This document shows, in pieces, positions 2,635 to 64,000 of a stretch of DNA of 64,000 nt. Position 1 is the stretch's first letter. Each line of letters begins with the position of its first letter. This stretch comes from Buxus sempervirens (taxonomy: Eukaryota; Streptophyta; Magnoliopsida; Buxales; Buxaceae). A program made the translations under genes and the position numbers. Where the stretch lies: assembly GCA_947561395.2 (NCBI GenBank), contig OX387185.1:35568213-35632212 (forward strand), given 5' to 3'. The notes beneath the pieces are model-generated. The model was not told the origin of the DNA, ran no database searches, and worked only from the letters and a program-made list of their open reading frames with translations.

Positions 2635-2774
2635 TATCCGGCAACTCAAGCCGGATACAAGTATTTTCCTTTGTATCCGGTGGAAAATGCCGGATACAAG
2701 AAAGCTTTAGTGTATCCGGCATTATATGCGAAATACCTTAAGGCCCTTGTGTATCCGGCCTGATATGCCGGATA
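2635..2774. promoter_or_regulatory. Dyad array, four TATCCGG-N9-CCGGATA units, 39 bp pitch
   Basis: Four 23 bp interrupted palindromes start at 2635, 2674, 2713 and 2752, exactly 39 bp apart. Three have perfect arms; the third has a decayed right arm. The TATA box lies about 155 bp downstream. The same array type is found in the LTRs at 28728 and 42860. Confidence 0.9.
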
Positions 2775-2930
2775 CATAAGTTTTGCTCAAAACTTAGGGT
2801 TTTCCGAGAAAAATCATTTTTACCATCATATCCCTCATTAAATGAGGGGAAATCTCGGAAACAGCCTTAGAGTTAAGGTTGGTGGGTTCTAGACATTAAG
2901 TTGTGTCTACCAACAACCCTTGCCTTTACC

Positions 2931-3121
2931 TATAAATAGGAGGCTCCTCCTTAAGCAAATGGCCATTAACTCTTGTTTTGAATTCTCGCCAAGAAGAACT
3001 CCAAGAGAAGAAGAAAACCGCTGTGGGATCGCATCCAGAACCCAGGTAAGCCTCAAACTTTTCTTTTATTTTCTGTTTTTTACATTCCTAGATTGAGATC
3101 TCTTCTTCTACCTTTCTGTAG
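2931..3121 (+). promoter_or_regulatory. LTR core promoter and leader mini-intron
   Basis: A TATA box (TATAAATAGG at 2931) is followed about 115 bp later by a strong splice-donor sequence (CCAG/GTAAG, intron from 3046), a pyrimidine-rich stretch and an acceptor (TTTCTGTAG, ending 3121), giving a 76 nt candidate intron. The arrangement recurs in all five LTRs that retain this region. Promoter assignment is firm; splicing is inferred from sequence only. Confidence 0.65.
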
Positions 3122-4840
3122 AATAAGGCCTTCTATGTGTGTGAAAATCCTTCCCCGGCTCAAAGTATCTTGAGACTCCCCCTAGCCGTAAAACGTGGAG
3201 GCGGGATCTAGGAGAAACGAGATTGGGGATTGACCCTAGTGCTAGAACCTATATAGCATAAGGCATTTTGATTGATTGTAAACCGTTTCATATTCAAAGT
3301 ACCCTTGATTATCTTGAAGAACCGTGTTTAACGGGGAGAGAGAACAAAGGGAAACGATAATGGAACGGAACCCTAGGTTGTTCTAGAACCTTATTTTGAT
3401 GAATATGTATGCATGCTTTGTTGTTGTATTGATCTCGTATGGTTTCTCACACTTGTACATACATAGTACCATTTTGGCGAGATAGGCTCATATTTGGGGT
3501 TTATTGCATTTATTGTGATAAATCTCAAATAAATGGCCTCAATCAATTCTGGAATATTTTCAAATGATTTTTCAAAGATTTTTGTTCATCTTGCACGAAT
3601 GGCGCATACTTTATCACAATTTTGAGTTGGTTTTACTCAAAAAGGGCCTAACTGGATAGTACCTGTACCCTTACTTCTGACGCTCATAACTTCATCGTCC
3701 GGATGAATTTTGGAGCGCTTCTAGAATGATAAGAAAGGTGAGACTGTCTAGTTTATGTTCACCAAATTTCATAAATTACTATCAAACGGATTTTTGACAC
3801 CTCTCTGTCGAAGTTGATTGGACAGTTCAGGTTCAAATACAGAACTTGTCACTTCGAAGGAGCGCCATGTGTTCGTTTTAAGTCCGATTCGAATGATTTT
3901 TGTTTTTGGGCACTCCTTTATGAGTCTATTTTCAATTCCAGTTGGTTTCATAATTTTTTGACTCCAGTTGAATTATTGGTAGCCGATTTACTCAGAACTG
4001 CTCAATGGCACTTTTCTGGGTAAATCTGTGATCTTCGGGCCTGTTCGGGAGATCACCCAAGGCACATCCGAAGGGATTCTTGTATGAGGCTAGTTTCTGT
4101 TGAAAGATGGCCATACAGACTTCAATCACACCAAATTTCGTGGATTTTTATGAAGTGGATTTTTCTAGACAATTTTCCAAAGTTGCCCACTTATCACTTT
4201 TTGATTATCCCCAACAGCAACTTTAAAGGAGCATAACTCCTAGGATTTTTATCGGAATGAAGTGAAATTTTGCATGAGACCCTTATTTACTATAATCTTT
4301 CAAATGGATTTGGTTTGATTTGATTTAAAATTGTATTTGAATGATTTCAAGACAAATGACATTACTTTTCACCGAATTTTCCGGATTTGATTCAACTTGG
4401 TTTTTGAATAACTTGTGCTTTGATTTGCATCTTTTTGTGATATTCCAGAAATGATGTTGACATAAGAGAAGATCTAGAATCTATTTAGATCTTCATGTGG
4501 AAATATCATACATTGGTCCTTTTTCAAGGTTTTCTATGATTTTAGCAAGCTTTCTTATTTTTGCATGAACATACACTTGGCTACCACTTTGTGTGGATGA
4601 ATGGGGGTGCCTAACACCTTCCCCCATTCATAATCTAATCCCCTTACCCATCTCTGGATTTTATTTTCAAGTAGGGTTATTTTTATCCTAGAATGTTTCT
4701 TTTGTCTCTTTTTTGCTTGTTTTTTATCCTTTGGTGTCCATTCTCACCTCAAAATTCTGAATGGTGGCGACTCTCCCAAACTTCAAGTTGAGCCCCGTGT
4801 GTTGACGATGTGTGATTTTTTTCCCGTGTCTCACAATATC

Positions 4841-5122
4841 CACAGATGGCCTTCCATTGATGAACTTTGCAACTAGAGAATATGAAAAAGGACTGATCGA
4901 TTTGTTTATTTCACCGTCAGAAAACTCCACTGCCGGAAAACCTTGAAAGCTATACACACTTTTCCTTGGAACGTTAACATCTTCCACAACAAGACCAGAC
5001 TGACCACCAGAAACTACAGCAGCAAAAGAAGGCTTATCTGGAGGGATCGAAGAAGAACCTCCTTGGTTATTGGAAGCCATTGAAAATCGCCCTTCAAGTC
5101 GCCCTTCAGATCTTTTTACCAA
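4841..5122 (-). pseudogene. LINE ORF1, N-terminal part
   Basis: This piece holds the start of the same ORF1. The likely initiator is at 5080 (MASNNQGG). After it come SFAAVVSGG, FPAVEFSDGEI and ISPFSYSLVAKF, the usual opening of the DUF4283 domain, and then GRPSVDI. The homologous protein resumes at 2063 with DIVRG, and the five-base repeat ATATC flanks the inserted LTR, so the two pieces are one gene split by insertion. An upstream in-frame ATG at 5122 would add 14 residues and lies at the edge of the surrounding LTR, so it is less likely to be used. Confidence 0.8.
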
Positions 5123-5773
5123 AAGATCCTATGGTCTAAACTGTCCCTTTTGATGATTTTTGGGTGTATCTGGTTTAGGTCTCTCAACCAATGGGAAATC
5201 TAGACTAGATTTGTACCCTAGATGATTCGGATTTATTTTCCAACATTCTGAGATGACTTTTGTATTATTTTAATTTTTGAGAGAAGACCCTATGGTTTAA
5301 ACTCTCTATTTTGATGTTTTTCGGATGAATCTGGTTTACATCTCTCAACCAATGGGAAATATATACCTGATTTGTACCCTAGAACTGTTTGGATTGGTTC
5401 TTCAATATTAGGAGATTATTTTTGAGTTATTTTAATTTTTGAGAGAAGATCCTATGGTCTAAACTCTCCCTTTTGATGTTTTTCATCCACATGGGTGTAT
5501 TCGGTTTAGATCCCTCAATTAATGAGGGATTTTGACTAAATCTGTACCCTAGATTGTTCAGGTTTAATTCCTCAATATTCTGATTTTAATTTTTATTTCA
5601 AGGATTTAACTTAAATTTAGCCTTTTTGGTGTTTTACTTTAGGTTGCTTTCTTTGATTTTTATCTTGTTTTCTTTTTTTACTCACTCGTGAAACCCTCAA
5701 GATGGTATATTCATATGAATAGTTCAGAATTAATTGGGCCATCCATATAGAAAAGGCCATACATTTTTCGTTT
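5123..5773 (+). mobile_element. Tat LTR 'C', left part
   Basis: Sequence homologous to the second half of the element A LTR but plus-oriented and diverged. It is interrupted on the left by the LINE and on the right by element A, and resumes at 26882. Its first 480 bp is a tandem repeat of about 161 bp (units near 5125, 5286 and 5448, each opening with a CCTATGGT-TTAAACT-like phrase), a segment that appears once in the A LTR. The last five bases (CGTTT, 5769-5773) are the target duplication of A. Confidence 0.75.
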
Positions 5774-7579
5774 TGTGAGACATAGGAAAAAATCAATTTA
5801 ATGATTTCCTCAATCATCACACGGGATTAAATTAAACAAAGAGTCGCCACCATTCAATTTAGGTGTGAATGGACACCAAAATATTAAATAAGCACAAAAG
5901 GCAATTTTAGGGTAAAAATAACCCTCCTTTAAAAACAACCAGAGATGGGTAAGGGGATTAAGTTATGAACAGGGGAAGGTGTTAGGCACCCCTATTCATC
6001 CACACAAGGTGGTTGCCAGGTATTGTTCATGTTTAAAATAAAGGAAAAAGCTTGCTATAAAAATCACACAAAATCACAAAAAAGGCAAAAATATATGGTT
6101 TTTTCATATGAATAGTCTGATTGATCCAGAACTTTCAAATATGATCATACCATTCCTAGGGTTTCATGATCAAAGTAAGATTGAGATAAAATAAAATAAA
6201 ATCAATTTAAAGTGAAAAATCCAAAAATCTGGCTTCAAGTCAAATTCTAGAAATCTAGAAAAATATGATTTTTATAAAATATTTCAAAATTGAATTTGAA
6301 TAGTCCAGGACACAGATAAAACCCAAATTTCACATTAAATCAAAAATCAAAACCAAAAATACCCACGTTGATGAAGAACACCAAAATGGGAGAACTGAGA
6401 CCGTAGGGTCTTCTCTCAATAATGAAAAACGATTCAAAAATCATCTCATGAAACCCTAGAATTTACTTTCAGGCTTCTGGATCCAGATCTACCATATTGA
6501 TCATGATAAATCCAAGATCCTAGCCTAAAACCACCAAAAATCACGAAAACAATGCTGTAGGTGCAAAAGTGGCAAAAATCAAAATTTTAGCAAAAAGTGG
6601 GGATTTCATGCTATAAACATCATAGATTCATGTTATTCATTTAGATATATCATAAAAAGCATTGAAACATGATCAAAATATTTAAAACAGCCACATCTCA
6701 CAGATTAGAGCACATGGGGGTCTACCCTACAGATCCACCTGTTCCCCTTTCCCCTAGTTCTCTCTTCACGTTTTACGGCTAGAGAGACTCTTGAGGTACT
6801 TAGAGATAGGTTTGGTTACACAAACACAATCATAGGCCTTATTCTATGAAAAAAAGAAAAAAAACAGATATGGGGTTCTATTCTAGGGATCCACCTGTTC
6901 CCCTTTCCCCTAGTTCTCTCTTCACGTTTTACGGCTAGAGAGACTCTTGAGGTACTTAGAGACAAGTTTAGGAATACGAAAACAGATATGGCCTTATTCT
7001 ACAGCAATAGAGCTGATCCTATTACTTCTAGAATTGAAGACAGAAATTAAAAAGGGATAGGGGACTTACCTGGATTGAGCAGGCAGGCAGCAGGAGTTCT
7101 TCTCTTCTCTTGGAGCTTCTTAGAATTCCTTGTACTCAAAATTTCGTGGCCCTTAGCTAGAGGAGAGAGCCTCTATTTATAGACACACCCAGGGGCAAGG
7201 CTGGTCCAGAAGGATATGGCCTGGTCTTTAAGATAGAGTGAAATACGGAGATAATGCCCAACCAAGGTGGCTTCAGCGAATAAAATACTTAATTCGCTCA
7301 TTTAAAGATATATTGGACTAAAGATAAAGCTCGGAAATCGAGAGAAGGACAAAACTCGCACGTGTCCTTAGTGACCGTAAATGCACTACGGTCCAACGGG
7401 GACCGTATAGTTTTCACGGGCGCGCCTGACCGTAGAGACTTTTCGGGCGCGACCGGCCCGTGAATGAAATACGGGTAAAGCCTGTTTATTCAATTTTTAT
7501 GCATTTTTAACCTGTTTTAAGCTCTAATTACATTTTTTTATTATTTTCTCATTTTTTAGTGCAATTTGGGGTGTCTACA
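5774..7579 (-). repeat. Element A 3' LTR
   Basis: An 1,806 bp LTR, reading TGTAGACACC to TCTCACA on the minus strand. In sense order it has a CCGTA-type dyad array (7474 down to 7375), a TATA box (CTATAAATAG, 7173-7182), a 71 nt mini-intron candidate (7069 down to 6999), and a partial tandem duplication of the region containing TAGCCGTAAAACGTG (copies near 6730-6800 and 6890-6965). It ends with the conserved tail. It matches the LTR at 25073-26876 at about 99%. Confidence 0.95.
7375..7474. promoter_or_regulatory. Dyad array, four CCGTA-N7-TACGG-type units, about 28 bp pitch (3' LTR of A)
   Basis: Units begin at 7375, 7403, 7430 and 7458. All keep CCG-N11-CGG; the inner two bases of a half-site vary slightly (TA, TG, CA, TT). 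The array lies about 190 bp upstream of the LTR TATA box in the element's sense direction. Confidence 0.9.
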
Positions 7580-7597
7580 GCTGCCCCCTCTTTGCTG
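7580..7597 (-). promoter_or_regulatory. Polypurine tract of element A
   Basis: On the minus strand the sequence next to the 3' LTR reads AGCAAAGAGGGGGCAGC, the purine-rich primer for plus-strand synthesis. The same AGCAAAGAGGGG core stands beside the 3' LTR of element D and, as CGCAAAGAGGGGCAG, of element B. Confidence 0.85.
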
Positions 7598-7933
7598 GTA
7601 ATTGGAACCAATTACAAGCAGAGAGCAAAAAGACCCACCAATTGCACTTTCTGAGATTTTTGTCTAATCAATTGCACTTTGCAAGGATAAAATGGATGAT
7701 TTTGAAAAAAAAGAATTGATTGTTGGAAGATTTGCTAAGAAGTCCCTCAGCTTAAGGGCCAAATCCTCCTCTCTCCTCTCACTGAGCACTTGTGGGCTAT
7801 GAAGTGAGATTTGAGACAAAATTTTTAAACAAAAGTGGGTAAGGTGGCAATCCTTGCAACTTACAACTAATATAAACATTAATCTCTTGAAAAATGTGGA
7901 GAAAATGATAAAATACGCAATTTTTGGCTTCTC

Positions 7934-8033
7934 CCGTATTTTGCTTACGGACAGTTGTTACCCGTAGAGTGTTCACGGTCGACCAGGACCGTAGTTCTTT
8001 CACGGGAGTCTGATGCCCGTACTGAGTTTACGG
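7934..8033. promoter_or_regulatory. Dyad array, four CCGTA-type units, upstream of the antisense PMD gene (A)
   Basis: Units begin at 7934, 7962, 7989 and 8017 and keep CCG-N11-CGG with the half-site of the A LTR. A fifth, off-register unit (N12) is near 8110. The array is followed by a TTAAGTTCGCGACCGCG stretch, whose counterparts follow the equivalent arrays in B and, more loosely, D. That stretch may mark the core promoter of the antisense PMD gene. Confidence 0.85.
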
Positions 8034-8039
8034 ATTTTA

Positions 8040-11000
8040 TGCTCTTCTTAAGTTCGCGACCGCGGCTTTTCTTCATTTCTGCTCGTATTCAAGCCCTAAG
8101 CCCTTGTCGACCGTATCCTCTTCTACGGACGTCTCTCTTCTTCTTCAACCATCCTCCGACGATCTCCGGCGATTACTGTTCTCCTCCGGCGAGCATCTCA
8201 TTTTTTTTTTTTTTTTCGGCGACCATTCTCCTCCGGCGATCACTGCTTTCCAGCGACCGCTTGCCTTCTTCCTTGGAGCTTCAGTGGAGTAAGATTTTAG
8301 CTTGCAAAACCTCCATTCAGATAATCAGGTATGCCTTTTCTCAAATTCTTCTTGCAAACAGTTCGTCCATGCTATTCAATCTTCTGTTCCTTGATTGTAG
8401 AAATTCAGACCTGTTTTATGGTTCAACCACTGATTTTTATGCCAATGCTACATCCGAAAATTGTTGAAGAGATGCTTGAAATGCTTGCATGATCCTCATG
8501 AGTAAATCTTCAACTTCTATATACGACCAAATGACTTTCTGCTCTTGGGTTAACAGATTTGGCTTTTGAATGAGCCAATTTCCGAATTTTTGAATTTGCT
8601 CCATGCTGACTGAACTGATATGTGCAAATTTTCTGGTTGAGTCTAGATTGCTGCTTCAATCTTGTATACTCTAGATTCCCTTTGATTATTTGGCCAACTT
8701 GTTTATTCCTTAAGAAGTTGTTTCATGCAATTTTCTGTCTTGAAATGTTAGCTTTAAATTGCTGTATTTTGCCTGATTTGATCAGCCTTCTTCTTGAATG
8801 CTACTCTATTAACTGCTAGAGCATCCTTATTTTTAAGTCTCAAGTGCAATTGCTATCTCCATCTTGGCTTTTGGCCTGTGGTGCTGCTATGATTGTGTAG
8901 ACTTGAATTTTATTCCCTGGAGCTGAATACATAGCTTGACATGAGTCGTTCCTTGATTCACCTGGCGTTTAAGCAACTTAGTATAGAATAGGTAATCTTC
9001 ATTCAAACTTGAACATGCTTCGACTATCCTGAAACCAAGTAAATTTAAATGATTAGGTTTCTTTAGAAAATCCAAAAGAGGAATTTAAGATCAATTTCTA
9101 ACACACTAATACACATATATATATATTTTTTCCTTTTCCATATAAAGAGAACATACAGGAAGCCTAAACTTCCTATATGTAAATTTTAGACAAGTAACAA
9201 TAAAATTTTCAAAATTAAACTCCTTAGTTGACTTCTGATTTTGGTCGGGAGTTTCTGGAGCACTTTCTTCCATTCTTCATTTTTCTTTTTTCCTTTTTCC
9301 TGCCAATCAATTAAACTTGGTTAGAATAAAGATCAATCCATAAAATTTTAACAAGAATAATTAACCAACTCCCTGATTTGAATCGTAGATGGCCCGCCTT
9401 AGATCAGCTTCCAGATATCCTGCAGATGAGCCTTCCTCCTTGAGGGTTAGGCGAGATCCTGCTGATGTGACTACTTCTTCGAGGGCTGAGAGGGATTCTG
9501 ATTCAGACCTTCCTGATCTCCCTTCTGGGGATTCGCGTGAGGCGACCCCAGAGGTATTCTCTAACTCCTTTGAATTTAATATTCCTTTTCAAAACACATC
9601 ATCTTGATTCTTTCTTCTCTCCAATTATTTCCTTAGCCGGCAGTTGAGGCTTCGAGCAGAGATAGGAGCCGTAGCAGGCACCGAGCTGGAGGCAGAGATG
9701 GAGGCCATGATGAGGGCCATAGAGGAGGTCGTAGAGGGGACCGTGGCAGAGATGAGGCCAGGACCAGGGTTGAGATACCTGAGGGGGTGGCTGCCAAGAT
9801 TAGGGATACCGATCTTTTGCATGGCTTGAGGACTCATCCCTCAGCGTGTATTAGGGCGGATATCCCTTTGGAGTTTGCTATGTCCCACTATAGAGGGAGT
9901 TGGGCTAGCTTCACTAGATTCTTGGGAGCCTGCAGTTCAGCCTACCGTCGGGAGTTAGGCTTATATGGATTTGGCATGTTTATTACCATCCCAGACGTTC
10001 GCTTGGATCGGGCCCTCATTGCTACACTGCTGGAGAGGTTTTTCCCTGAGACTTTGAGCTTCCATTTCCCGGATATTGAGATTGGGATCCGGCCTTCTAA
10101 TTTTACGCTCATCACCGGGATTAGGATGATCGGTGATGTTATTCCTGAGATGGAGATGCCAGAGGCTGATGAGGTTGCAGCTTATCTTGGATATATTGTG
10201 CTGCCTCCTGAGGCATGGGATCGGGGGAGAGCTAGATTGTCTCTGACATGGTTGAGAGAGACTTTCAGTAGGAGGCGGTTTGGCCAGCTTGCTGCCGGTG
10301 ATCATGTTTTCCCGTTCGCCTTCCGGTTTCTTTTTATGTATATGATGGGATCCTGCTTCTTCCCAGAGGACACGACCTCAGTCAATCCTCACTTCCTAAG
10401 CTTACTGGGAGATCTTCAGCGGGCGAGGAGGTATGCATGGGGCCCGCTCATTTTTGGTACTATTTTGGCCGGCCTTCGCCGATCAGTGAGTGGCCTCTCT
10501 ACTTCCAGAGGGGCTGGAGTTGGGTGCAGATTTTTCTAGCCTTTTCTGCAGGTGAAATGTCTATTTCCTTTCTCTTTCTTTCTCTTTCTCTTTTTCTTAT
10601 CTCTCCTTTTCTATTCCTCTAACTCTTTTCTTCTTTTTGCAGTTTTTTGCTAGGGTTTATATACCCTATTTCCGTCCTACCTCTACGATGCCTGAGGAGA
10701 CATATCCTATGGCACGTAGATGGTGTCATGTAGAGCACGATTCTGAAAAGAGTCGTCCCAGGTCCGCCCGGGCCCACTTGGACAGGCTATACCGGTCTGA
10801 GGTAATCTTCTTTAATTTCTCTACTTTCTTCTTTTCTTTTCTTCTTGAGTCACATATCTGATGTCTTGTTCTGTTTTTCAGCTATTTGTCCCCAGGATGG
10901 AGGACATTCATGAGGTGCTGGCCCTACAGGCAGCCAGAGATGATGCATTTGTCCCTGACCAAAGACGACAGAGATACCAGTTCTTTATTGGTCAGCTGGG

Positions 11001-12251
11001 CAGCATCTGGTACTGCGGCGAGCGCTTCTTCTTTCAGCATGTGGGAGAGCCACGGATTCCTGCCATCCCGCCAGATACTACTCCTTCTTACCCTCCTATG
11101 CCTGTTGATCCTGCCCAGTTCCTAGATTGGACTGAGGCAGAGACTTTATTAGAGGAGGGTGACTATGATTGGACTCAGGCGAGCTTCAGTAGGGTGCCTC
11201 ATGCCACCTATGCCTGTCCGTGGCGGAGTCACTGAGATTGGAGGGGTAGTGATTAGGGCCTATGACACCACGGTATGTCTTCTTCCTTTTCACCTTTCTA
11301 TTTTCATTTCATTTGAACTTAGCATTTTTCTGACTTCTGTCTTTTCTATTTCAGGAGGCTCAGTTGGCAGAGATCCGGTCTCGATATGCTGATCTAGAGC
11401 GCCAGCGAGATGCTGCGATTGCTGAGCGGGATGCCCTCTATATCACTATTTCAGACCTCCGGGGGCAGCTAGCCAGAGCACAGGGCCAGGAAGGTCCATC
11501 TGATGCACAGGACCAGGCGGGTCCATCTTATACTCAGGTTAATTTCTTCTTTTATTTCCATTCCTGCTCTTGCATTAGTTTGTCTTGTTCTGACTGAAAT
11601 TCCTTTTCTTAGTTTCAGGAGGACACAGCCGGCCCTTCTTCACCTGCTTCACCCGTGCCCATGCATTTTCGGGACGAGGTATTTTCTGTGGCACGAGTAG
11701 AGTTCGTGACGTTTCCCAGTCCAGTAGAGATTCCTGCAGCAGAGCCCGAGGTCGAGGCTGATATTGTACTTGCTGCTGAGGATGTGCCAGAGTCGGCCCC
11801 AGTAGCTAAGACTGCTCCTGCTACGTCTGCTGATGTAGATATGGATTCGGCTATGGACGCCGTTGTGGTAGAGCCTACCGTGGAGGCTGTGGTGATGGAG
11901 GAGGCTACAGCTGATCTTGTAGAGCCCGGTCCTGATGATGATGTACCTGGGACCTCTGCTCCTGCTAGTCCTGCTATGGAGGATGCCGAGGAGACGCATG
12001 CTGCTGTTGATACGTCCGCGGATTCTTCCCGTACTGATTCTGATGTAGATACTTCAGGGTACGTCCCTCCTGATCATCCCACTGCTGGCCTTGTGCCTTT
12101 ATATATGTGGCATGATATTCAGTCTGTTTTGAGCAGGATGACGCGTAGCACAGCCCGCAATGTTGTGCGGCATGTCTTTGAGCGCAGGCGATCTTCAGGC
12201 CGTGGTCGAGGCAGAGGACGAGGCCGTGGCCGTAGGGGCGGACCTGCATAG
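8040..12251 (+). CDS. Antisense extra gene of element A: PMD-like protein with Arg/Gly-rich tails
   Basis: An intron-containing gene on the strand opposite gag-pol. A leader exon (to about 8338) is followed by a leader intron of about 1.05 kb whose acceptor is joined directly to the ATG at 9389. The coding part is in about six blocks separated by short GT-AG gaps of roughly 80-90 bp. In order: an acidic Ser/Arg-rich N-terminus, an Arg-rich segment, a core of about 230 residues (9840-10550) with FPETLSFHFPD, LITGIRMIG and LSLTWLRETF segments, a coiled-coil-like block (11355-11537), an acidic Ala/Val-rich region and a C-terminal GRGRGRGRGRGRRGG tail. The core resembles the plant mobile domain (PMD, PF10536), known from transposons and from the host silencing proteins MAIN and MAIL1. 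Nucleic-acid binding is inferred. Extra ORFs are known in the Tat lineage; I cannot judge whether this copy is expressed. Confidence 0.6.
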
Positions 12252-12472
12252 ACATTAGATTAGGATTCTTCTATGTACATTTGTATTTTTTGGCAAAAGT
12301 GATGTAAACATTCATATATATATAAAAGAAGTTTGATTTATTTCCATTTGTGTTCTTTTCTTCTTTATTTTCAGTATTTATTGCCTGATGAATGTTTAAA
12401 ACAGGGACAGGTGAAGCTTATGAAAACCAAGGAAATTAAAAATTCCCATTTTTTTGCATTTTTTCGAAGGAA

Positions 12473-12600
12473 CCGTATTTACTATACGAGCAAGCCGTGC
12501 CCGTAAAGTTACTACGAGCGCACTCTGCCCGTGAAGTTTCCACGGTCAAGGGTGTCCGTAGTTCCTATACGGGCGAGCTTTGCCCATAGTATAATTACGG
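12473..12600. promoter_or_regulatory. Dyad array, five CCGTA-type units, upstream of the second antisense gene (A)
   Basis: Units begin at 12473, 12501, 12529, 12556 and 12584, so the pitch is 27-28 bp. All keep the N11 spacing; three half-sites carry one substitution in the CCG or CGG triplet. A TATA box follows within 25 bp, the closest coupling of array and promoter in element A. Confidence 0.88.
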
Positions 12601-12624
12601 AATTTACTGCCTTACGATTTTTTC

Positions 12625-12632: not shown

Positions 12633-12667
12633 CTCATAGGGAACGTCATTGTGACACTTTTATTAGT

Positions 12668-25070: not shown

Positions 25071-25072
25071 GT

Positions 25073-53900: not shown

Positions 53901-55894
53901 TCCTTAGTCACTCTACACTATTGATATCCCGGATGGACCCGCTGAAGTATTTATTTGAGAAACCGGCACTGACTGGCAGAACAGCAAAGTGGCAACTGCT
54001 ACTGTCCGAATTTGACCTCACATACATCACCCGGAAGGCGATCAAAGGTCAAGCCATAGCTGATCACCTGGCTGCACATCCTTTGCCAGAATATCAACCC
54101 TTGAAGACCAACTTTCCAGATGAGGCAATTCTGTACACTGAAGAGGAGGACAGTGAGAGTTCTTGGCAGATGTTCTTCGATGGGGCCGCCAACATGAATG
54201 GGAACGGAATAGGGGCAGTCTTGGTTAAACCAGATGGTTCACATATCCCAATTGCAGTAAAGCTGAGATTCCAGTGCACCAATAACATAGCAGAATATGA
54301 GGCATGCATAATTGGATTGCAAGCAGCCATGGATCAAGGAGTTGAGGAACTTGACGTATACGGGGATTCGAGTCTTATCATCTTCCAAAAAACTGGTGAG
54401 TGGAAAACCAAGGATCACAAATTGATCCCCTATCACCAGTATTTGGAAGAAATAAGCACAAATTTCACTCGAATTTCCTTCAACTATATGCCAAGGGCCA
54501 AGAATCAATTTGCAGACGCTCTAGCCACCTTGGCTTCAATGGTCAGCATACCAGAAGGAGTAGACATCAGACCACTGGAAATTGAGGTCCGAGATGAACC
54601 GGCTTACTGTCTCGTACTAGAGGGAGCACCAGAAGAAGAAGCACCATGGTTTCTGGATATCAAGAAGTTCTTGAATAATCGGAGTCTGCCAGAAAATGCC
54701 ACTGCTACTAAGAAGAGGACAATACAGAGATTGGCTGGTCAATTTCTGCTAAGTGGTGGACATGTGTACAAGAGGTCACATAACGACATTCTGCTAAGAT
54801 GTGTTGCCAAGGTTGAATCGGAAAGGCTAATTGAGACTGTACATGGAGGAGTCTGTGGGCCCCATATGAGTGGGCACATGCTGGCTAAGAAGATCCTGAG
54901 GCTGGGATACTACTGGACAACCATGGAACATGATTGCTGTATACATGTCAAGAGGTGCCACCAATGCCAAATCTACGCAGATAATAAGCATGCACCCCCA
55001 GGTGAGCTGCACAACATGACATCACCCTGGCCCTTCTCTATGTGGGGCATAGATGTCATCGGCATGATCTCCCCTAAGGCATCGAACGGGCACAGATTCA
55101 TTTTGGTGGCAATTGATTATTTCACTAAGTGGGTGGAAGCAGCTTCATATGCAAATATCACCAGCAACCATGTGATCAAATTTTTGAAGCACAACATCAT
55201 TTGTCGCTATGGACTGCCAAGTGCCATTGTATCAAACAATGCTTCAAACATTAAGAACAAGGACGTGAAGAAAATGTGTGAGCAGTTTCAGATCACCCAC
55301 CACAAGTCAGCTCCGTACAGGCCAAAGATGAATGGGGCAGTAGAAGCAGCCAACAAGAATATAAAGAAAATCATTCAGAAGATGGTAGTGAGTTACAAAG
55401 ATTGGCATGAAATGCTACCACTTGCTCTACATGCCTACAGAACCTCGATCCGGACTTCAACTGGGGCAACCCCATACTCCCTAGTCTATGGGATGGAAGC
55501 AGTCTTGCCCGTGGAAGTAGAGATCCCATCACTCCGAGTGCTCATGGAAGCAGAACTAGAAGAAGCCGAATGGATCCAGTCGAGACATGATCAACTTAAC
55601 CTGATAGAAGAAAAGCGGTTGAAAGCGCTTTGCCATGGACAGTTGTACCAGAAGAGAATGGCCCGGGCTTACAATAAGAAAGTGAGGCCCAGAACTTTCC
55701 AAGAGGGAAACTTAGTGCTAAAGAAAATTCTACCATTTTTGGAAGACCCCCGTGGTAAGTTCAAGCCCAATTGGGAAGGCCCATATGTCGTCAAGAAAGT
55801 CCTATCAGGGGGAGCACTCATCTTAGCAGAAATGGATGGGTCAGATTTTCCTGAGCCCATTAACTCTGATGCGGTAAAAAGGTATTTTCCTTGA
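50900..55894 (+). CDS. Element B protease and pol (RT, two RNase H domains, integrase)
   Basis: The protease part (about 50920-52300) has the IDNGSALNVC active-site motif and a G-patch-like stretch (GKGLGINLQG). The pol part (about 52310-55894, nearly 1,200 residues) is open along its length. It contains RT with VDYRDLNRASPKDDF and YVDDM, a Ty3 RNase H (KYSPLEKTCCALVWAT), the archaeal-type RNase H typical of Tat (NGNGIGAVLVKPDG, NIAEYEACIIGL, VYGDSSLI), an integrase HHCC finger (GGVCGPH to RCHQCQIY), the integrase core (PWPFSMWGIDVIG, APYRPKMNGAVEAANK) and a C-terminal GPYVVKKV segment. Protease and RT are in separate overlapping frames at the same place as in element A, matching the known gag-pro/pol separation in the Ogre group. 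Confidence 0.92.
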
Positions 55895-56831
55895 GTGAAT
55901 ATTTCTAGGAAATGATCCGAGGCCATTTTTCTTTATTTCCTTCAAAATTCAAATCCCTAGTCTAGCCAAATTGAGCCGGTTCGTTTCTTTGATCAACCCA
56001 AACCGGATTTACAGTCAAATTGGGGCAAAATCAATTGGGGCAAAAGTGAGGAAAGAAAAAGAAAAAGAGAGGAAAAGCAATGGAAATGGCAAATGAAAGC
56101 CAAGTGTGAAAAAAAGATGCAAAAAATGCAATGTGGGGAAAAATGGTTAAATTTATCATGACTGTAAATCCGGTTGACCTATTTCCACACTTGAAAATTT
56201 TGGGCCTTTAATACCCTTTCTTTCATAAACTGAGCCTAGCCTTTATTTCGTCCTATTTTTAAGCCCTCGGTGATCTTAGTTTGTTCATTCAAATATCAGA
56301 GTAAGATGGGTGATGACGGAATTCAGAAGCCAGCCCTAGTGAAAACCGTAACTGGCGCTAGGGGCAACATTGGCAAAAAAAAAAGAAAAATATATATAAG
56401 AAAAAATGAAAGAAAATCAGAGGTTGAGTTGATCATGGGGATCTGAGCTTCAAGCAAAATCGGCATGAGATATATGGGGCAGTTTTGGCATTTGGGAATG
56501 ACTCTAAAGGTCCTAAGATGGACGGTTCTGATCCCTCAGTATTTTCTGGACTACCCTTTTCATTATTTAACCTGGTTCTAATTCCTTTAATTATAGGTGA
56601 TTAAGTGCATGGACCAAATTTCAAAAAACAAAAAAAAAATTAAAAAAGGAAAAATTATACTTTGGCCAGTGATGAGAAATCAAATACTTTTCATAAAACC
56701 TTTGTTTTTACAAGCATCTGAGCATTCTGAGGCCAATAATATAAAAACTTTATTATGAATTAAATCCTTTGTATTTCCACTATTGGAGTTCAATTTTGTA
56801 CAAAGGTATGAAAAATGTGCAGGAAATAAAG
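55895..56831. other. Convergent tail between pol and antisense genes (B)
   Basis: No gene. The stretch is conserved with 14496-15457 of element A, including the 30 bp hairpin at 56334-56363 (CCCTAGTG and CGCTAGGG arms) and a GGCCAGTGATGAGAAATCAAA block near 56664. It probably contains the 3' ends of both opposing transcripts. Confidence 0.6.
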
Positions 56832-58649
56832 CTAATCTCCTAGCCGCTCCTCAAGCTCCCGAATCCGAGCTGCCTGAGCTGCAATGACTCCTGAAGCCCC
56901 CTCTGCAGCGGGATCACTTAGGAAGGAAATGACCTCATCTGAAAGGGCTTGCTTAATCCGCATACTTCTAAGGCTGGCCAAAGTATCCTGGTACTTCTGC
57001 CGGATCATACGGACCTCAAAGCAACGAGCCTGCCTCTGCTCCTCCAGCTTCTCTTCCACGGCAATACGGTGTGAGATCTGCTCCTCAAGCTGCCTCTCCA
57101 GATAAGCGCCCTGTATCCTGAGCTCCTGGGCCTCCCGTACCCATATCTGCTGAAGCCGCTTATGAGAAGCCCGCTCAGACTCTAGAATGTCCTCATAGGT
57201 GGGAGCCAAGACTACAGGAGGATCTTCGGGTATTGGGGCCTGAGTCTGTATCTGCTCCTTGATCCAGAAAAGATAATCCTTCACATGGGCTTCTGAGAAG
57301 ACTGGACCATGCATAAAGCGGACATAGGACCACTCCTTCATCAACCAGGCATTTAGCTTCATAGAAAGGGGCCCAAGACGATCCTCATATCCACATGGGA
57401 TGATAATCCCCTGGGTCGCACGGTACTGACGAAGGACCCGCAGAGGAAGATAAAGCACTGTATGCCTCAGGCCAGCCAGAATCAGAAAGTTGCGGTCTCG
57501 GAAGCTAATCACTGTCTCCGCATTAGGCTGATAAGTACCAGGCCATCTCACCTGGTCATCCTGAAGCGAGCCCAAGAAAGTGAACCAGCCCTGTTTGCCC
57601 CCTGGAATATCGGGGCACCCCCTGTTGCTCATCAAGAGAGGGACTTTCAGACTCGGGAAGAAGTGTCGATTGATCTCTTCAATCTGGCTCAAATGATCAA
57701 GTAGCCAAAGCTGCAAAGGAGGAGAGATATGTCAGCACACTGTATATAAAAAAAAAAAGAAAAAAAAGAAAAAAAAGAAGCAAAAAAGGCAGAAAGAAAG
57801 CCAAAAAGCAAGAAAAAAAGAAAAAAGAAAAAAAAACAAAAAAAAAAACTTTTTTACCTGCAGGATCTGGGCACATGCTAAGAAGCGTTTCGACTTCCTG
57901 TTGTAGCAATCAGTCAAAGCTTGATATATTCCAGCTAAAATCATAGGGGCCAACCTCTCCCGCTCCCTAACCTGGCATATCACGGAAATCAAGGCCAAGT
58001 CCACCTCGTCATCCTCCCGTGGGAAAAGCAACTGGTTGACCACTATCAGGGTCAACGCATGGAATCGGGCCTCCTTATCTTCTCCCCTCAAAAGCTTCTC
58101 AGTCAAAAAAGCCTTAGATAGGGTCAAAAGGGTGTCAGAATCCCCCAAGTCCTTCTTCCATATGCCCAAAAAAGTAGAAGCTTCCTTCTTGTAACTGGGC
58201 CTAAGAGGTGGATTCACCACCTTCTCATCAAACCTCAGGCCCAGGATGGTTTCCACCTCCTCAATGGTTGGGGTCATCTCATGGTTCCCAAAACGGAACA
58301 AGTTGAGATCAGGAACCCAATGACCAATCATGGCCTCTATAATCTCCCACCTGAAGGGAACCTTGGGAATGAGCAGGGTATGGCCTAGGTTGGTAGTACC
58401 CCATCTCCTCTCCTCATCTAGGGTCATAGAGTTAACCCACCTTGTGTAAAAGGAATCCACAGGGTTGTACCTAGTGAGATTTGGGGGTTTTGATCTAAAA
58501 GGTTGTTTTGCAGGGGAGGCAGTGTGGACAGATAGTAATGGGGCAGAAGATGATCCGAATTCCATTCGATGTGATGGGAGTAAGCTAGAACTCAAGAAGA
58601 GGAGGAAAAAGGGGGTTTCTAAACTCAAAAACTCGTAAAAAATGCTCAA
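56832..58649 (-). CDS. Antisense extra gene of element B: DUF7745-like protein with coiled coil
   Basis: Ortholog of the gene at 12668-14495. The likely start is at 58565 (MEFGSSSAP); an upstream in-frame ATG at 58649 lies near the presumed transcription start. The first block runs through PPNLTRYN, YTRWVNSMTLDEE, MTPTIEEVETILGL and VICQVRERERLAPM to QILQ. Then comes an intron of about 150 bp made of T and C (57712-57858 by splice-like borders). The second block is LWLLDHLSQ, GGKQGWFTFLG, a DILESERASHKRLQQIWV segment, a long coiled coil and ARIRELEERLGD at the end. Both blocks are open in this copy, and the level of conservation with A across two families suggests past selection. Resemblance to DUF7745 is from memory of the family pattern; function unknown. 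Confidence 0.65.
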
Positions 58650-58666
58650 ATCCCGAGGCAGGTTGC

Positions 58667-58674
58667 ATTTATAG
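58667..58674 (-). promoter_or_regulatory. TATA-like box of the DUF7745-like antisense gene (B)
   Basis: On the minus strand CTATAAATGC lies 13 bp downstream of the dyad array and about 100 bp before the likely ATG at 58565, the same layout as at 12625 in element A. Confidence 0.55.
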
Positions 58675-58686
58675 CATCTTTTAACA

Positions 58687-58825
58687 TATCCGGTAACTCA
58701 GACCGGATACAAAGGCTTTAGTAATATCCGGATAAGTATACTGGATACAGAGGATTCCATGAATATCCGGTATGTCAGACCGGATACAAAGACCAATCAA
58801 TGTATCCGGTATGTCAGACCGGATA
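58687..58825. promoter_or_regulatory. Dyad array, four TATCCGG-N9-CCGGATA units, upstream of the DUF7745-like gene (B)
   Basis: Units begin at 58687, 58725, 58764 and 58803 (pitch 38-39 bp). One right arm is CTGGATA; the others are intact. Counterpart of 12473-12600 in A. Confidence 0.92.
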
Positions 58826-59049
58826 CCGAGAAAAAAGGCAAAAAAAAAAGCTAAGGATGAAAAAATCCGAATTTTTTACCTGTTTTACCTGCTTACATGT
58901 CATAATTGCATAAAATTGAGAGCAAAAGATGTGCAAGACATGATAGAATGAATAAAAAGTTTTTTTTCATATATATCTGGAAGTTTTGTACAGGGATGAT
59001 GATATAAATACATGAAAATGAAAAAATCCTAATCTACTCCTATGCAGGA
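58826..59049. other. Spacer between the antisense genes (B)
   Basis: AT-rich spacer between the end of the PMD-like gene and the array of the DUF7745-like gene. It probably holds the PMD gene terminator; nothing else is recognisable. Confidence 0.4.
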
Positions 59050-62000
59050 TCATCCCCCGCGTCCTCGGCCGCGTCCACCTCTACGGCCTCTCCCCCAAAG
59101 TGCTCGGCCTCTAGAGTATGCAAGGATCCGCTCGGCTGCATGGCGAGGATGCCGACCTACCACCTGCTGAAGCTGATACTCCAAGCAATAATCCTCGAGA
59201 TCTGGGGGAGGAGCAGGAGCAGAATCTGGGGAAGAAGCCTCGGGCTCAGCAGCAACCGGCCCAACTGGGCCCTCATCCAAAGCATCCTTTGCTCCCGCAG
59301 CTCCAGAAGGCCCAGCATCAGCAGCAGAAGGGCCAGGATCAGAAGTAGCTAAGTCCACAGAAAAGAGAAAAATCAGAAGACTCAGATATAGGAAGAATAA
59401 AAGAGTAGAATTAAAAGAAGATCATACCAGGAATATCTGCAGAAGGAGCAGGAGGATCCGGCTCGTCAAGACCAGCCGCTGGGGCATCCTCGGGATCAGA
59501 GGCCCGAGCAGGAGATGGGTCAGGAATCAGGAAATCATGCTCAAAGAAGGCATCCTGATCATGGACCGGGCCCTGCACAAGTCAAACAAGCATATCAGAA
59601 TAGCAGAAACAGGAAAATAATGAAAGAAATGAACATATGAGAAGGCCAGATACCTGTCTAGACTGGAGCTCAGCAACTAAGGCCTCCAGCTCCCTGATCC
59701 GGGCATCCCGCTGGGCCACGACCGCATCGTGCTCCGCGATCATATCATCGATCGCAGCCCGCTGACTCTCAAACCGGTCCCGGATGGTATTCAGCTCGTG
59801 TACCTGCCAACAAGAACAGAAGAAGGGTCAGAAATGCATAAGGAAAAAAAAAAGGATGAAAATGTAAAGAGTATAAGACTTACGGTGTCCTCATGGATCC
59901 GGATACGGATCCCGCCGATCTCAGTCACCCCGGCACGAGTGGGTCGATCCATCAAGCATCCAATAGACACCCTCTGGAACCACTCGTCGTAATCTCCGGC
60001 TACTGTGAGCCCCTCTGCATCCAGAAAATGATCAAACTGATCAACGTCGAAGCCGGGAAGGAGTGTGTCGGGACCCACAGGAGGAGGAGGGACGGGGATG
60101 GGAAGTGCGCTGGTGTGCTGGAAGTACAGGCGCTCTCCTAAGTACATCACCCTACCAAGCCTCCCGAGGAAGCACTGGTAGGGCTGACGTCGTCGATCTC
60201 TATCGAAGGCGTCCTGTACCGCCATCTCACGAGCCACCCCAACATCCACGTCATCAAATCGGGACAGAAGGAGCTGCAAAAAAGGGAAACTGTCAGGTAC
60301 AGTCAAGATACAGGAAAGGAAAGAAAAGAAAAAAATAAGGCTTACATCAGATCGGCGGGCACGGTCTAAGTGCACCCGGGCAGTACGAGGCTGACTCCTA
60401 TCAGCATCCCGGACCTGGGCCGACCATCGCAAAGCCACTGGAAAATCTGCGACCTCAGGTACCGGGGAGGGTCGGAAGAAGGTCATATAGGTGTACATGA
60501 ACACCTAGCAAAAGAAGAATCAGTCAAGAAAAGATAAAGCCTAAGGAATTAAACCAGACAGATGAATGCAATACCTGTAGAATCTGCCAGAAGAACCGGC
60601 TGCTGACTCCATCACCTCTCGGAGACGCTAAGCCCCGAACCGCTCGGCACAGCCCGGCCAAGATGGTCCCATAGATAAGCCGACCCCATGCCAGCTGACG
60701 GGTCTGGCGGAGATCTCTCAAGGCATCCAAGAAAAGTGGGCTGACACCGGTAGTATCCTCCAGGAATAAGCAGCTCCCCAACATCAGCAAGAATACATGC
60801 CGGAAGATAGGAACAAAAGCAGCATCATCCACAGCCACAGTCCGGTGTCTCCCCTCAAAATGTCGAGCCAGACTCTCCCGCAGCCAGCTAATGGAGAGCC
60901 GGCCGCTCCGCCCATCCCAAGTAGTAGGTGGCAGGGCCTGATATCCCAGGAGAAGTCCCATATCCTCCGCAGAAGGCCGCTCCAAGACGATGGTCCCCGT
61001 CAGAGGAATGCCAGTAATCATCACAAAATCGGAGGGGCGGATCCCCAGCTCCGCGTCCGGCAGGTGGAACGACTGTGTCTCTGGGAAGTATCTCTCCATC
61101 ATGGCAAAGATGAGTGGACGGTCGGCTCTGAATGATGGAATGCTGAGGAAGTGATCCAGATGACATCTCCCAAACTCCCGCCTGAGTGCCGGAGACAATG
61201 ACTGAGCTAACTCACTAAATCTCCCCCAACTACCCCGCAGATGGGAAGAATGGTACGGAAGCGGCACATCCGCCCTGATGCACATGGAGGGGTGGCTATC
61301 CAAGCCATGGAGAAGCTCTGTATCCTAAACAGAAGCCCTCAACTCCTCAGAGACCCCTGCCAGAGCTACAGCAACCCCCTCCGGAGCCATATCTCTGGCT
61401 CTGCCTCGGCCTCTACCACGGTCTCTCTCGCCCTCAGGGGCCTGATCCTGAACTCTGCCTCTGCCTCTGCCTCGACCCCGAGCCGGTGCAACCACGGGCT
61501 AAATTTCAAAGAGAAAGGTGTGAAGATTGATGTAAAAGGAGAATGAAGAAAGAATGAAAAATTTTTTTTTGAAAGCCTACCTCAGCAGAGCTCTCCCTGG
61601 AGACATCCAATGGCTCAGACAAGGTAGCACTGGAACTCGCCTCCGTACGAGCCCGCGAAGAGGAGGGCTGATCAGCTGGGTCAGCCTCCTCTCTAACTCG
61701 GGAACGACTCCTAGCCATCTACACAGGGAAGTGTTTTATAAATTTCAAAGTTGGCTTTGCTTATGGTGCATATCTAGTTTTACATGATTATTTTTCGAAA
61801 TTATGGGAATTTTACCTCACCTAAGTTACCTCTAAAGTTTTGAAGTAAGGAATATTTCTGTTTCTAATCTTGAAACATTTTCTAAAAGATTCCTACAATA
61901 CTTAACATTTCCTGTATGCTATGGTTCCAGGATATGAGGAGCGGGAAGGTCAAGGCATCAAAAGCAAGCAGAATTGCAGAAATCCAGATTGGACAGTTAA

Positions 62001-62930
62001 TTAAGAAAAATTCATAGCAAAGTGGAAAGTGAGCAAAAGCTTGTAATCCATTGGCAGTCAGTACAGGCATCAAGAAGGAGCAAGACCAGAAGAACAGATG
62101 TGGCATCAAGTCTGGAAAAGCAAAATCATACCGTGAACCATCCGGTTGGGAATTGGCCCAGGAACAGTAAAAAATATATCACTAACAAGACAGTTCTAAG
62201 GAATTATGACAAAACTGAATTAGGAAAGCAAAGTTTGTTCTAACATTGGCATACAAACAGCAGGACATCATCAGTTCATATCAGCAGCCGATAGACCAAA
62301 ATTCTGAGATGGCATTAATTCAAGGATACCACCAAAGAACAAAAGAAAGCATGATCACAGCAAAGCACAAGGCCTTAAGTTTGAAAAATTCCAGCAGAAA
62401 AGAACTAGGCCGAAAATAGTTCATACAAGGATTCAATTGCAAAGAAATATTCTGGAAATTTCAAGTGATCATACTTGCATGGAGAAGTAATCAACCAAGT
62501 CCAATTTGCAGAATAAATTGAGAAAGTGGCAATTCGGTGCTAAAATCAGATGAAATATGGCAATGTCGATTGAAAAATGCCAAAGTAAATTCATTGTCTG
62601 ATTAAGGATCAAGAAAAACCTGGTTGCAAGTGAAAGGGATCGGATGGATTGCTGGAACTCGAAAGGAACCACCGGAAATCAAGCCGGAGAATCGCCGGAG
62701 CTTAAACTGTCGAGCAGAATCGAGCAAAACCTGAAAATGGCGAGCTAGGGCTTGGTCGCGCAACCAGGTTGGGTCGCCAGCAGCAATAGGGAGCACCGGA
62801 GTTGCCGGAGGTCGCCGGAGAATGATGAAGAGCCGTCGGGTGAAGAAGAAGAAGGAGATGACCGGCCTGAGTAATCGGAGCAAGAAGGAAAGAAATGAAA
62901 AGTCGCGGTCGCGCGCGACTTAAGTAAACC
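59050..62930 (-). CDS. Antisense extra gene of element B: PMD-like protein with Arg/Gly-rich regions
   Basis: Ortholog of 8040-12251. A leader exon (about 62930-62620) is followed by a 901 nt leader intron whose acceptor TGTGTAG is joined directly to the ATG at 61716-61718. The coding blocks, in order: a Ser/Arg-rich N-terminus, an Arg/Gly-rich segment (GRGRGRGRAR), the core with RADRPLIFAMMERYFPE, SFHLPDAELGIRPSDFV and LSISWLRESL (about 61300-60575), a block with VGRYT..VHLDRARRSD, one with REMAVQDAFDRDRRRQPYQ, a helical AVVAQRDARIRELEALVAEL-type block near 59700, an acidic Pro/Ala-rich region, and a C-terminal GRGRRGGRGRGRGG tail. The core resembles the plant mobile domain. The gene looks broken in about one or two places. 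Possible nucleic-acid binding and regulatory role are inference. Confidence 0.6.
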
Positions 62931-62935
62931 TGCGG

Positions 62936-62997
62936 GATCCGGATACTCAGGCCGGATACCCGCAGACCCTTGATTATCCGGATATATTTACCGGATA
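62936..62997. promoter_or_regulatory. Dyad array, two TATCCGG-type units, upstream of the PMD gene (B)
   Basis: Units begin at 62936 and 62975, 39 bp apart; the first left arm reads GATCCGG. On the far side is the purine-rich run at 63001, so other units may have been lost. On the gene side TTAAGTCGCGCGCGACCGCG follows, like the stretch after the array at 7934 in A. Confidence 0.88.
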
Positions 62998-63000
62998 CCA

Positions 63001-63155
63001 AAGAAAAAAAAGAAAAAAAATAGAAAAAAACAGAAAAATAGAGAAAAAAAAGAAGAAAAGAAAAAAGAAAAAAAAAGAAAAAAAAAAGAAAAAAAAGAGA
63101 AAAGAAAAAAGAAAGAAAAAAAAAAGAAGAAAAGAAAAAAAAGAGAAGGAAAAGG
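63001..63155. repeat. Purine-only low-complexity run
   Basis: About 155 bp of A with scattered G (AAAAAAGAAAAAA type) beside the PMD array. The same bias, on the opposite strand, appears in the intron of the DUF7745-like gene. Confidence 0.8.
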
Positions 63156-63554
63156 AAAGAGCAAAATTGTGCTACAATTTCTATTTTCTAAAAATCCTAT
63201 TTTTGTCTTGAAATCCACCTCACAGCCACGAGAGCTCTGTGGAATTTAGGACAACCTTGGGAAATGTGCCTGGTCAAAAGGATGATATCCACTCAATTTT
63301 CAACTTGGTTTGATAAAAAATCAGTTTTTCAAAAAAATCCTATTTTTGGGCTTAAAATCCACTTCACAGCCACAAAGGGCTCAGTGGAATTTAAGAACTC
63401 TTGGAGAGATGCCCCCCTTAAAGTGAGGGCTTTTTGGCAAATCTCCACTCAAAAATTGTTTTCTACAGAAATTGAATTAAACCGAGCAAATCATGCTCAA
63501 GGGAATGCAATTTGGGCTTGTCTACTCTTTGCAGCTCACTGCTTCGCAGCTCCC
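63156..63554 (+). other. 3' untranslated region of element B with an internal duplication
   Basis: No gene. A segment containing TCCACTTCACAGCCAC appears twice (near 63209 and 63357, about 150 bp apart). Related sequence lies upstream of the polypurine tract in A (7680-7870) and D (32940-33130). Confidence 0.6.
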
Positions 63555-63569
63555 GCAAAGAGGGGCAGT
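63555..63569 (+). promoter_or_regulatory. Polypurine tract of element B
   Basis: GCAAAGAGGGGCAGT directly precedes the 3' LTR start at 63570, as in A and D. Confidence 0.85.
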
Positions 63570-64000
63570 TGTAGACACCCCAAATTGCACAAACAATCAT
63601 CAAAAATCATTATCTCCTGGAAAGCCAGCACAAAATTTGAAGAAAATAAACTTTTACCTGTATCCGGATACTCAATCCGGATACAAGTACTCCTTCCCGT
63701 ATCCGGATACTCATACCGGATACATGTGAGCCTTAGTGTATCCGGTACCATGTACCGGATACCTTAAGGCCCTTTGTTATCCGGTCTGATATACCGGATA
63801 CCTTAAGTTTGCTCAAAATTAGGGTTTTCCGAGAGCTTTTCACTTTTACCATCATGTCCCTCATTAAATGAGGGGAAATCGCGGAAATGACCTTAGGGTT
63901 AAGGTTGGAGGGGTTCTAGACATTAAGTTGTGTCTACCAATGACCTTAGCCTTTGCCTATAAATAGGAGCCTCCTCCTTGAGCAAATGGCACACAACTCT
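63570..64000 (+). repeat. Element B 3' LTR, first 431 bp
   Basis: Matches 42860-43290 with three differences. It includes the four-unit TATCCGG array (63661-63800, same 39 bp pitch) and a TATA box (TATAAATAGG at 63958). The rest is beyond the window. Confidence 0.95.

Follow-up and report, generated by a model that had tools for sequence, protein, structure and literature searches.

CCG-N11-CGG dyad arrays with a family-specific base in Tat retrotransposons of Buxus sempervirens, candidate target sites of element-encoded proteins

A 64,000-nucleotide stretch of the Buxus sempervirens genome (assembly GCA_947561395.2, contig OX387185.1, positions 35,568,213 to 35,632,212 of the forward strand; hereafter the window) holds five copies of Tat retrotransposons, which we call A, B, D, E1 and E2 and to which our comparison of elements is confined. 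We found that these copies carry arrays of an interrupted palindrome, CCG-N11-CGG, placed in their control regions, that the base next to the CCG follows a code particular to each family, and that A and B, and D as a remnant, carry antisense genes of the plant mobile domain (PMD) family with a low ratio of nonsynonymous to synonymous substitution (dN/dS). On balance we lean towards the view that the arrays are cis-regulatory sites for a dimeric, sequence-specific DNA-binding protein supplied by each retrotransposon family.

The arrays had been noticed in a sequence-only reading of the window, and that observation stands, in stronger form than it was first given. The window has 46 exact copies of CCG-N11-CGG where about 1.9 would be expected, and the neighbouring spacings occur 6 (N9), 4 (N10), 8 (N12) and 11 (N13) times. 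In 100 dinucleotide shuffles the mean was 1.87 (standard deviation 1.31, maximum 6), so that the proposed excess at N11 is borne out on both counts. When all 64 triplets were scanned with spacers of 5–19 bases, no other combination reached the z-like excess of CCG-N11; CGT-N9, which is nested inside the same dyads, was about equal to it in plain ratio. Peaks at CCG-N24-CGG, CGG-N22-CCG, CCG-N25-CCG and CGG-N11-CCG match the periods of 28 and 39 bp at which the dyads are repeated and their doubled CCGG arms. The great majority of exact dyads (43 of 46) lie within arrays, at places which the sequence-only reading had already located, and the three outside (17834, 49168 and 62862) are about the number expected by chance; the last of these, 77 bp from a B array, may be a decayed array member. 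A further 12 dyads have changed bases at the expected spacing (12473, 12501, 12584, 23751, 23835, 28913, 33398, 58728, 2716 and three in the 5' long terminal repeat (LTR) of A), which together with the 43 exact ones gives the figure of about 55 interrupted palindromes originally reported. The accompanying figure of 13 arrays needs correction: the clusters listed for it number 14, or 12 distinct arrays when the duplicates in the A 5' LTR and B 3' LTR are left aside. An inverted-repeat scan with exact arms of 8 found 69 centres, of which 38 (by hand count) fall inside arrays, either as dyads or as pairings of neighbouring dyads.

In A and B, arrays of 2–5 dyads stand at four matching sites, namely the U3 region of the LTR, the leader before gag, the region upstream of a DUF7745 gene and the interval between the 3' LTR and a PMD gene; D retains two of the four sites, and E1 and E2 consist of an LTR with its array alone (Table 1). 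The period between dyads is 27–28 bp in A and D and 38–39 bp in B, E1 and E2. The difference between 39 and 28 bp is 11 bp, about one helical turn, and we note a reading in terms of helical phase to which we attach no weight on its own. Among the copies checked (A, B, E1 and E2), the TATA box that follows the LTR array reads CTATAAATAG in A, E1 and E2; in B its place is taken by the variant CTCTAAATAG. The array of the DUF7745 gene ends 24 bp (A) or 15 bp (B) ahead of a TATA box, with the ATG about 100 bp further on. For the leader arrays no tie to any promoter was established. The dyads that had been listed for D at 33342/36399 proved to be a single four-dyad array split by a 2,968-bp insertion (33423–36390) with the target-site duplication (TSD) GGGCA; when the LTR flanks are rejoined, the four dyads fall at 28-bp spacing. 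Both arrays described as lying in solo LTRs do lie in LTRs, of which that at 28832 is indeed solo, with TSD GCCAC and inserted within D, but that at 2635 is truncated at its 5' end.

Table 1 Positions of elements, dyad arrays and antisense genes in the window
Feature	Position	Strand	Evidence or description
Element A, complete Ogre-like Tat insertion	5774..26876	-	LTR pair, ends and TSD AAACG, domains
Element B	42860..64000	+	LTR pair, domains, ends; 3' LTR extends past window
A 3' LTR U3 array	7375..7474	-	4 dyads, CCGT 7/8 and one CCGA, period 28/27/28, TATA box 7182
A 5' LTR U3 array	26673..26772	-	one exact dyad and three decayed
A array, 3' LTR/antisense PMD gene interval	7934..8033	.	4 dyads, CCGT
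A array upstream of antisense DUF7745	12473..12600	.	5 dyads, three with one changed base; TATATAAA at 12625, ATG 12725
A leader array before gag	23723..23851	-	4 CCGT dyads and a fifth with changed base
B 5' LTR U3 array	42951..43090	+	4 dyads, half-site GTATCCGG, period 39; TATA-like CTCTAAATAG at 43247
B leader array	46662..46801	+	4 dyads, CCGG
B array upstream of antisense DUF7745	58687..58825	.	4 dyads, CCGG; TATA CTATAAATG at 58674-58666, ATG 58565
B array, 3' LTR/antisense PMD gene interval	62936..62997	.	2 dyads, CCGG
B 3' LTR U3 array	63661..63800	+	duplicates 5' LTR array
E1 truncated LTR array	2635..2774	+	4 dyads (one decayed), CCGG; TATA 2930
E2 solo LTR array	28832..28971	+	4 dyads, half-site CCGA; TATA 29138
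D array, PMD gene remnant/3' LTR interval	32831..32903	.	3 dyads, CCGC
D 3' LTR array	33342..36415	+	4 dyads, CCGC, split by insertion
A antisense PMD gene region	9637..12251	+	PMD exon 9637-10536, Pfam PF10536, E 5.3e-16
A antisense DUF7745 gene	12725..14492	+	Pfam PF24924, tblastn; related to PMD, coiled-coil-like stretch
B antisense DUF7745 gene	56832..58565	-	two exons, Pfam PF24924, E 2.5e-17
B antisense PMD gene region	59791..61354	-	Pfam PF10536, E 9.6e-14
D antisense PMD gene remnant	27185..28705	-	3 in-frame stops in compared exon; 72% identical to A PMD exon

We compared the half-sites of 45 dyads (90 half-sites in the 12 distinct arrays, omitting the two duplicate LTR arrays and the outlying dyads 12584, 23835 and 62862). 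CCG is intact in 83 of the 90, and six of the seven others are one C-to-T or G-to-A substitution away from it, as would follow from the decay of methylated sites. The base which follows CCG (position +4) is T in 31 of 32 half-sites in A, G in 28 of 28 in B, C in 14 of 14 in D, G in 8 of 8 in E1 and A in 8 of 8 in E2. All four bases therefore occur at this position across the copies; the same control region differs in its +4 base between A, B and D, and different regions of one element agree. The core described as universal thus holds for CCG, CGG and their spacing, but not for the next base, which differs among families (T, G, C or A). The +4 position was picked after inspection of the half-site table; when its base was permuted across the 10 arrays in A, B and D, free shuffling gave an equally clean partition 134 times in 200,000, and 2 of the 144 arrangements possible within sites did so. 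A base that is unlike between families and uniform within each points to family-specific factors, and is what would be seen if every family had a trans-acting dimeric DNA-binding protein of its own.

A candidate for such a protein may be encoded by the elements themselves. Between pol and the 3' LTR, A and B each carry two genes on the opposite strand, one with a PMD and one with DUF7745, the first exon of which also matches PMD; these two are the Pfam families that rose above the cut-off in the antisense genes. The DUF7745 genes of A and B have a common splice donor, CAG before the cut and GTAAAAA after it (with a GT..AG junction in B), followed by a polypyrimidine tract, and the A copy has a frame change near 13.05–13.08 kb. 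In B, an in-frame stop or exon edge lies directly upstream of 61324 in the PMD gene. The PMD gene region of A includes an acidic stretch with a basic RG-rich tail (together 11613–12251). Inspection by eye shows coiled-coil-like sequence there too, and a long stretch of it in the DUF7745 gene, which has one weak PDB match, to keratin (E 0.058, exon 2). The PMD exon found no match in PDB, and neither the PMD nor the DUF7745 exons matched the protein collection. Among the A and B proteins compared the PMD exon is the most diverged (dN 0.446, 51% identity), the others being pol (dN 0.042, over a 751-codon part), DUF7745 (0.135–0.233) and gag (0.189). A and D, which have the 28-bp period and CCG(T/C)A half-sites in common, are closer in their PMD exons (dN 0.172). 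Values of dN/dS far under 1 were obtained for PMD (the exon, A/B and A/D) and DUF7745 (its exons, A/B), with dS saturated throughout. The antisense PMD protein, alone or with DUF7745, is the leading candidate for the factor which would bind the arrays, judging from these comparisons; DUF7745 as the sole specificity factor was ranked below it, being less diverged between A and B.

From the above we infer protein binding, the identity of the protein and a role in activation or anti-silencing, and propose a mechanism for them. One subunit would read one CCGN half-site, and two subunits, 14 bp apart and in opposite orientation, would form a dimer on the dyad. Two to five such dimers would sit side by side in every control region, namely at the LTR promoter, in the leader and upstream of the two antisense genes, with the +4 base and flanking bases serving as a family recognition code that would be altered in step at all sites when the specificity of the protein changed. 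The antisense PMD product, with or without DUF7745, might turn on the LTR and its own gene, or shield them from silencing, as VANC does on VANDAL. That the dyads are half-sites of a dimeric protein had been suggested by the sequence-only reading; arm variants with no clear pairing, the retention of CCGN over the spacers and the arrays adjacent to TATA boxes at the DUF7745 genes speak for it, but the base particular to each element and the antisense genes, which are the likely source of the factor, had been overlooked.

Several points weigh against this reading. Three elements have more than one array, hence few independent changes, and because of this and of the post hoc choice of position the +4 evidence, though strong, is not that of a large sample. 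A TATA box was looked for after the arrays on the PMD side in A and B, without result. The dN/dS of PMD (about 0.14) is close to that of DUF7745 (about 0.12) and dS is higher in PMD (3.2) and gag (4.7) than in pol (1.2), so that PMD may be an older or recombined segment rather than a faster-evolving one, and the closeness of A and D in PMD may be mere ancestry. Pfam named no known DNA-binding domain at E values up to 5 in 8 open reading frame (ORF) pieces, a scan that lay outside the small PMD exons, and the AlphaFold model of the PMD exon was unusable (mean pLDDT 43.7); the link from PMD to the arrays is therefore one that we infer.

It should be noted that enhancers in LTRs commonly depend on host factors, and the dyads could likewise bind host transcription factors, the families having recruited different members of a CCG-reading host family as stress or tissue enhancers. 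The half-site of E2 extends to CCGAC, which we take to be like the core of the dehydration-responsive element (DRE). Sirevirus motifs matched mainly stress-related sites in the available text of Bousios et al. (PMC2829016). However, each +4 base is uniform across unlike regions of one element, a uniformity which a shared host factor does not need, and the arrays also stand upstream of the element's own antisense genes; we consider host factors an unlikely explanation.

Uniformity within an element might also have arisen by copying of arrays or gene conversion, a mutational homogenisation in which no family-specific trans factor is required. Some figures favour this, and to that extent count against an element-supplied protein: spacers in B are 0.35–0.46 identical over all pairs and 0.43–0.71 when index-matched forward, those in D 0.43–0.57 with the highest value index-matched reversed, and index-matched spacers in A range from 0.11 to 0.57, the latter between the LTR and DUF7745 arrays, reversed. 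Short blast matches also join sites of one element (D LTR and PMD arrays, 38 bp at 87%; A DUF7745 and leader arrays, 21 bp at 95%; B DUF7745 and LTR arrays, 24 bp at 96%), and some old copying between sites is likely. However, over all dyad pairs in A the middle 7 spacer bases are 0.20–0.38 identical forward and 0.25–0.40 reversed, against 0.305 expected from composition, whereas CCGN cores are 0.91–0.97 identical between sites (0.91–1.00 within elements overall). As A spacers are mostly near chance, recent copying is a poor explanation of the +4 uniformity, and the far better retention of cores than of spacers points to selection on the cores. Any copying would then have to date far back, with selection maintaining the cores from that time on, and we hold homogenisation as the whole cause to be doubtful.

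The arrays could instead act as RNA or cruciform hairpins, serving as a signal in dimerisation or packaging or giving rise to hairpin siRNA. All nine of the 12 distinct arrays that were folded as RNA were more stable than 200 shuffles each (z −3.6 to −14.8), although any palindromic array folds well. In A, the left and right arms of the same dyad showed no excess likeness over re-paired arms (p at least 0.1 at every position); B and D gave weak, uncorrected trends (B −1, p 0.075, and +5, p 0.095; D −1, p 0.041). A-type arms are about 5 bp long, a fixed N11 and periods of 28 and 39 bp are irrelevant to a hairpin, and arrays upstream of the DUF7745 TATA box fall outside that mRNA. Fixed spacing, short A arms and promoter placement thus fit protein half-sites better than RNA, and a hairpin role appears improbable. 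An element-encoded binder other than PMD or DUF7745 (gag, integrase or the G-patch region), acting in nuclear entry, integration or cDNA packaging, is very improbable: gag is also diverged and the arrays would be present in reverse-transcribed DNA, but the part of pol compared is nearly invariant between A and B though the code differs, and the arrays lie at promoters.

If the arrays are, as we favour, sites for a protein of the element's own, a wider proposal may be put forward, more tentatively: that the Ogre group has a self-recognition code in which an antisense PMD-family protein reads dimeric CCGN arrays, one N per family, and activates or un-silences its own family only, in a VANC-like manner within LTR retrotransposons, and that host PMD proteins (MAIN, MAIL1) could descend from such a regulator. 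PMD-family genes are described as widespread in plant Gypsy elements and as having a common origin with MAIL1 and MAIN, silencing genes of the host, in the portion of PMC5418596 available. Were the arrays PMD targets, an element-borne PMD function would become testable, with target, half-site and specificity switch (CCGT, CCGG, CCGC, CCGA) given, and sequence-specific self-recognition would extend from DNA transposons to large LTR elements, which make up much of many plant genomes.

The order of the pol domains and the PMD extra ORF agree with a placement of the elements in the Ogre group. Pfam domains were sought in 20 of the 26 stop-to-stop ORFs of at least 150 aa. A and B have the order gag, reverse transcriptase (RT), RNase H (RH), second RH and integrase (INT), which is the Ogre/Retand order, and in B the pol domains follow as RVT_1, RT_RNaseH, RVT_3, Integrase_H2C2 and rve (RT-RH-aRH-INT, as in the Ogre clade), with overlapping protease and RT ORFs. 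The LTRs of A (5', 25073–26876; 3', 5774–7579) are 98.8% identical, yet three of the four dyads are decayed in the 5' array and all four are exact in the 3' array. The 5' LTR of B spans 42860–45139, with the primer-binding site (PBS) starting about 45142; D is a remnant of part of the PMD gene and the 3' LTR, with a polypurine tract ahead of the LTR (by eye); and E2 spans 28728–31206. TSDs of A (AAACG) and E2 (GCCAC) are 5 bp. The insertion in the D LTR array has TG..CA ends. A G-patch domain (PF01585) lies between gag and RT (B 50673–52307, A 19045–20436), and plant Gypsy elements with G-patch are reported in the available part of PMC9289625. Tandem repeats stand between leader array and gag in A (22949–23569, units of about 34 to 91 bp) and B (47102–48372, about 46 to 170 bp), and are unrelated in sequence between the two. 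Near the E1 LTR there is a 494-aa minus-strand ORF with DUF4283 (717–2201). Outside the Tat elements, a dyad TCGCCCAA-N8-TTGGGCGA occurs in three tandem copies (51–52 bp) at 38408–38561, with one arm altered in one copy; this cluster, found in the inverted-repeat scan, was set aside, being of other sequence and even spacing.

Searches for relatives with pol, DUF7745, the PBS, the LTR start and an RT piece against viral contigs, and with the RT piece against genome contigs, gave no usable relative and two contigs only; the plasmid collection gave no match. One contig, GC-rich and phage-like by eye, was rejected, with a chance PBS match, one weak element-protein match (E 1.7e-4) and no N11 excess (18 copies against 6–19 at other spacings). 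The other, BMWJ01000029.1 (1–4661, filed as Streptomyces clavifer), encodes a Tat-like RT 60% identical to that of B over 93 residues and is probably plant contamination; no N11 dyad was found in this plant-like 4.7-kb sequence.

We also compared the arrays with known systems. A Gal4-type upstream activating sequence (UAS) is CGG-N11-CCG, and the likeness, in the 11 bp between two CCG/CGG triplets, in their repetition ahead of a TATA box and in the dimer logic, is an analogy only: here the triplets are reversed (CCG-N11-CGG), and among the ORFs scanned none was given a zinc-cluster domain. VANDALs belong to the DNA transposons (MULE). Their VANC proteins coevolve with short element-specific motifs repeated in non-coding DNA (Hosaka et al. 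2017, PMC5735166; Sasaki et al. 2023, PMC10398659, both in the portions available), and the arrays described here are alike in being family-specific, in non-coding regions and changed together between families. However, VANDAL motifs (YAGTATTAY) are arrayed in one orientation and ours are dyads, binding and methylation loss have been demonstrated for VANC whereas binding is here a proposal, and the antisense genes here are assigned by Pfam to PMD and DUF7745.

Among the matches listed in the open-licence literature (titles and abstracts), we found neither dyad arrays in Tat/Ogre elements nor targets for an element-borne PMD, and within this scope the earlier statement that no Tat feature of such architecture has been described held. 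Ogre elements have the order RT-RH-aRH-INT and a PMD extra ORF in 57% (Neumann et al. 2019, PMC6317226), and the clades PMD-A1 and A2 are exclusive to Gypsy elements (Ikeda et al. 2017, PMC5418596); A and B share this order and carry a PMD extra ORF (PF10536 in antisense ORFs), but the available text of these two papers describes no dyad arrays or PMD target sites. For the antisense ORFs of Retand with TRP28 a DNA-binding regulatory role was proposed (Vicient 2025, PMC11963269), and gene23 of maize Grande has its own promoter (PMC7264820). These involve another protein domain than here, with no target sites proposed in the parts of the two papers available, and TRP28 (PF04195), a Retand marker, was not found in the antisense ORFs scanned (at least 150 aa).

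The closest analogue is in Sireviruses, whose repeated palindromic motifs (RMs) have a CGG-CCG core in 12 of 13 elements tabulated, cluster in the upper LTR half ahead of the TATA box with further copies upstream of an accessory gene, and are CpG-rich with intervening and flanking bases that vary by family (Bousios et al. 2010, PMC2829016, available text). The arrays in the window resemble them in that palindromic CCG/CGG repeats, here with the triplets as CCG..CGG, precede both the TATA box in the LTR and an accessory gene, and a Citrus Sirevirus RM, AATCCGGCTWRCCGGATT, resembles the half-site of B. The differences are that Sireviruses are Ty1/copia and the present elements have the Ty3/gypsy order, with RH before INT; that RM spacing is short and variable by family (e.g. 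CGGTCTGACCG) whereas CCG-N11-CGG is constant in five copies; and that RMs precede a sense ENV gene whereas the arrays here also stand at the leader and at two antisense PMD-family genes. No trans factor is identified for RMs in the same text, and an element-encoded protein of the kind we propose, if real, could explain those palindromes as well. With Sireviruses and VANDAL as their nearest precedents, and none reported for Tat/Ogre elements among the matches listed, the arrays are best read, testably if not yet proven, as the gypsy counterpart of the Sirevirus motifs with a VANC-like logic.

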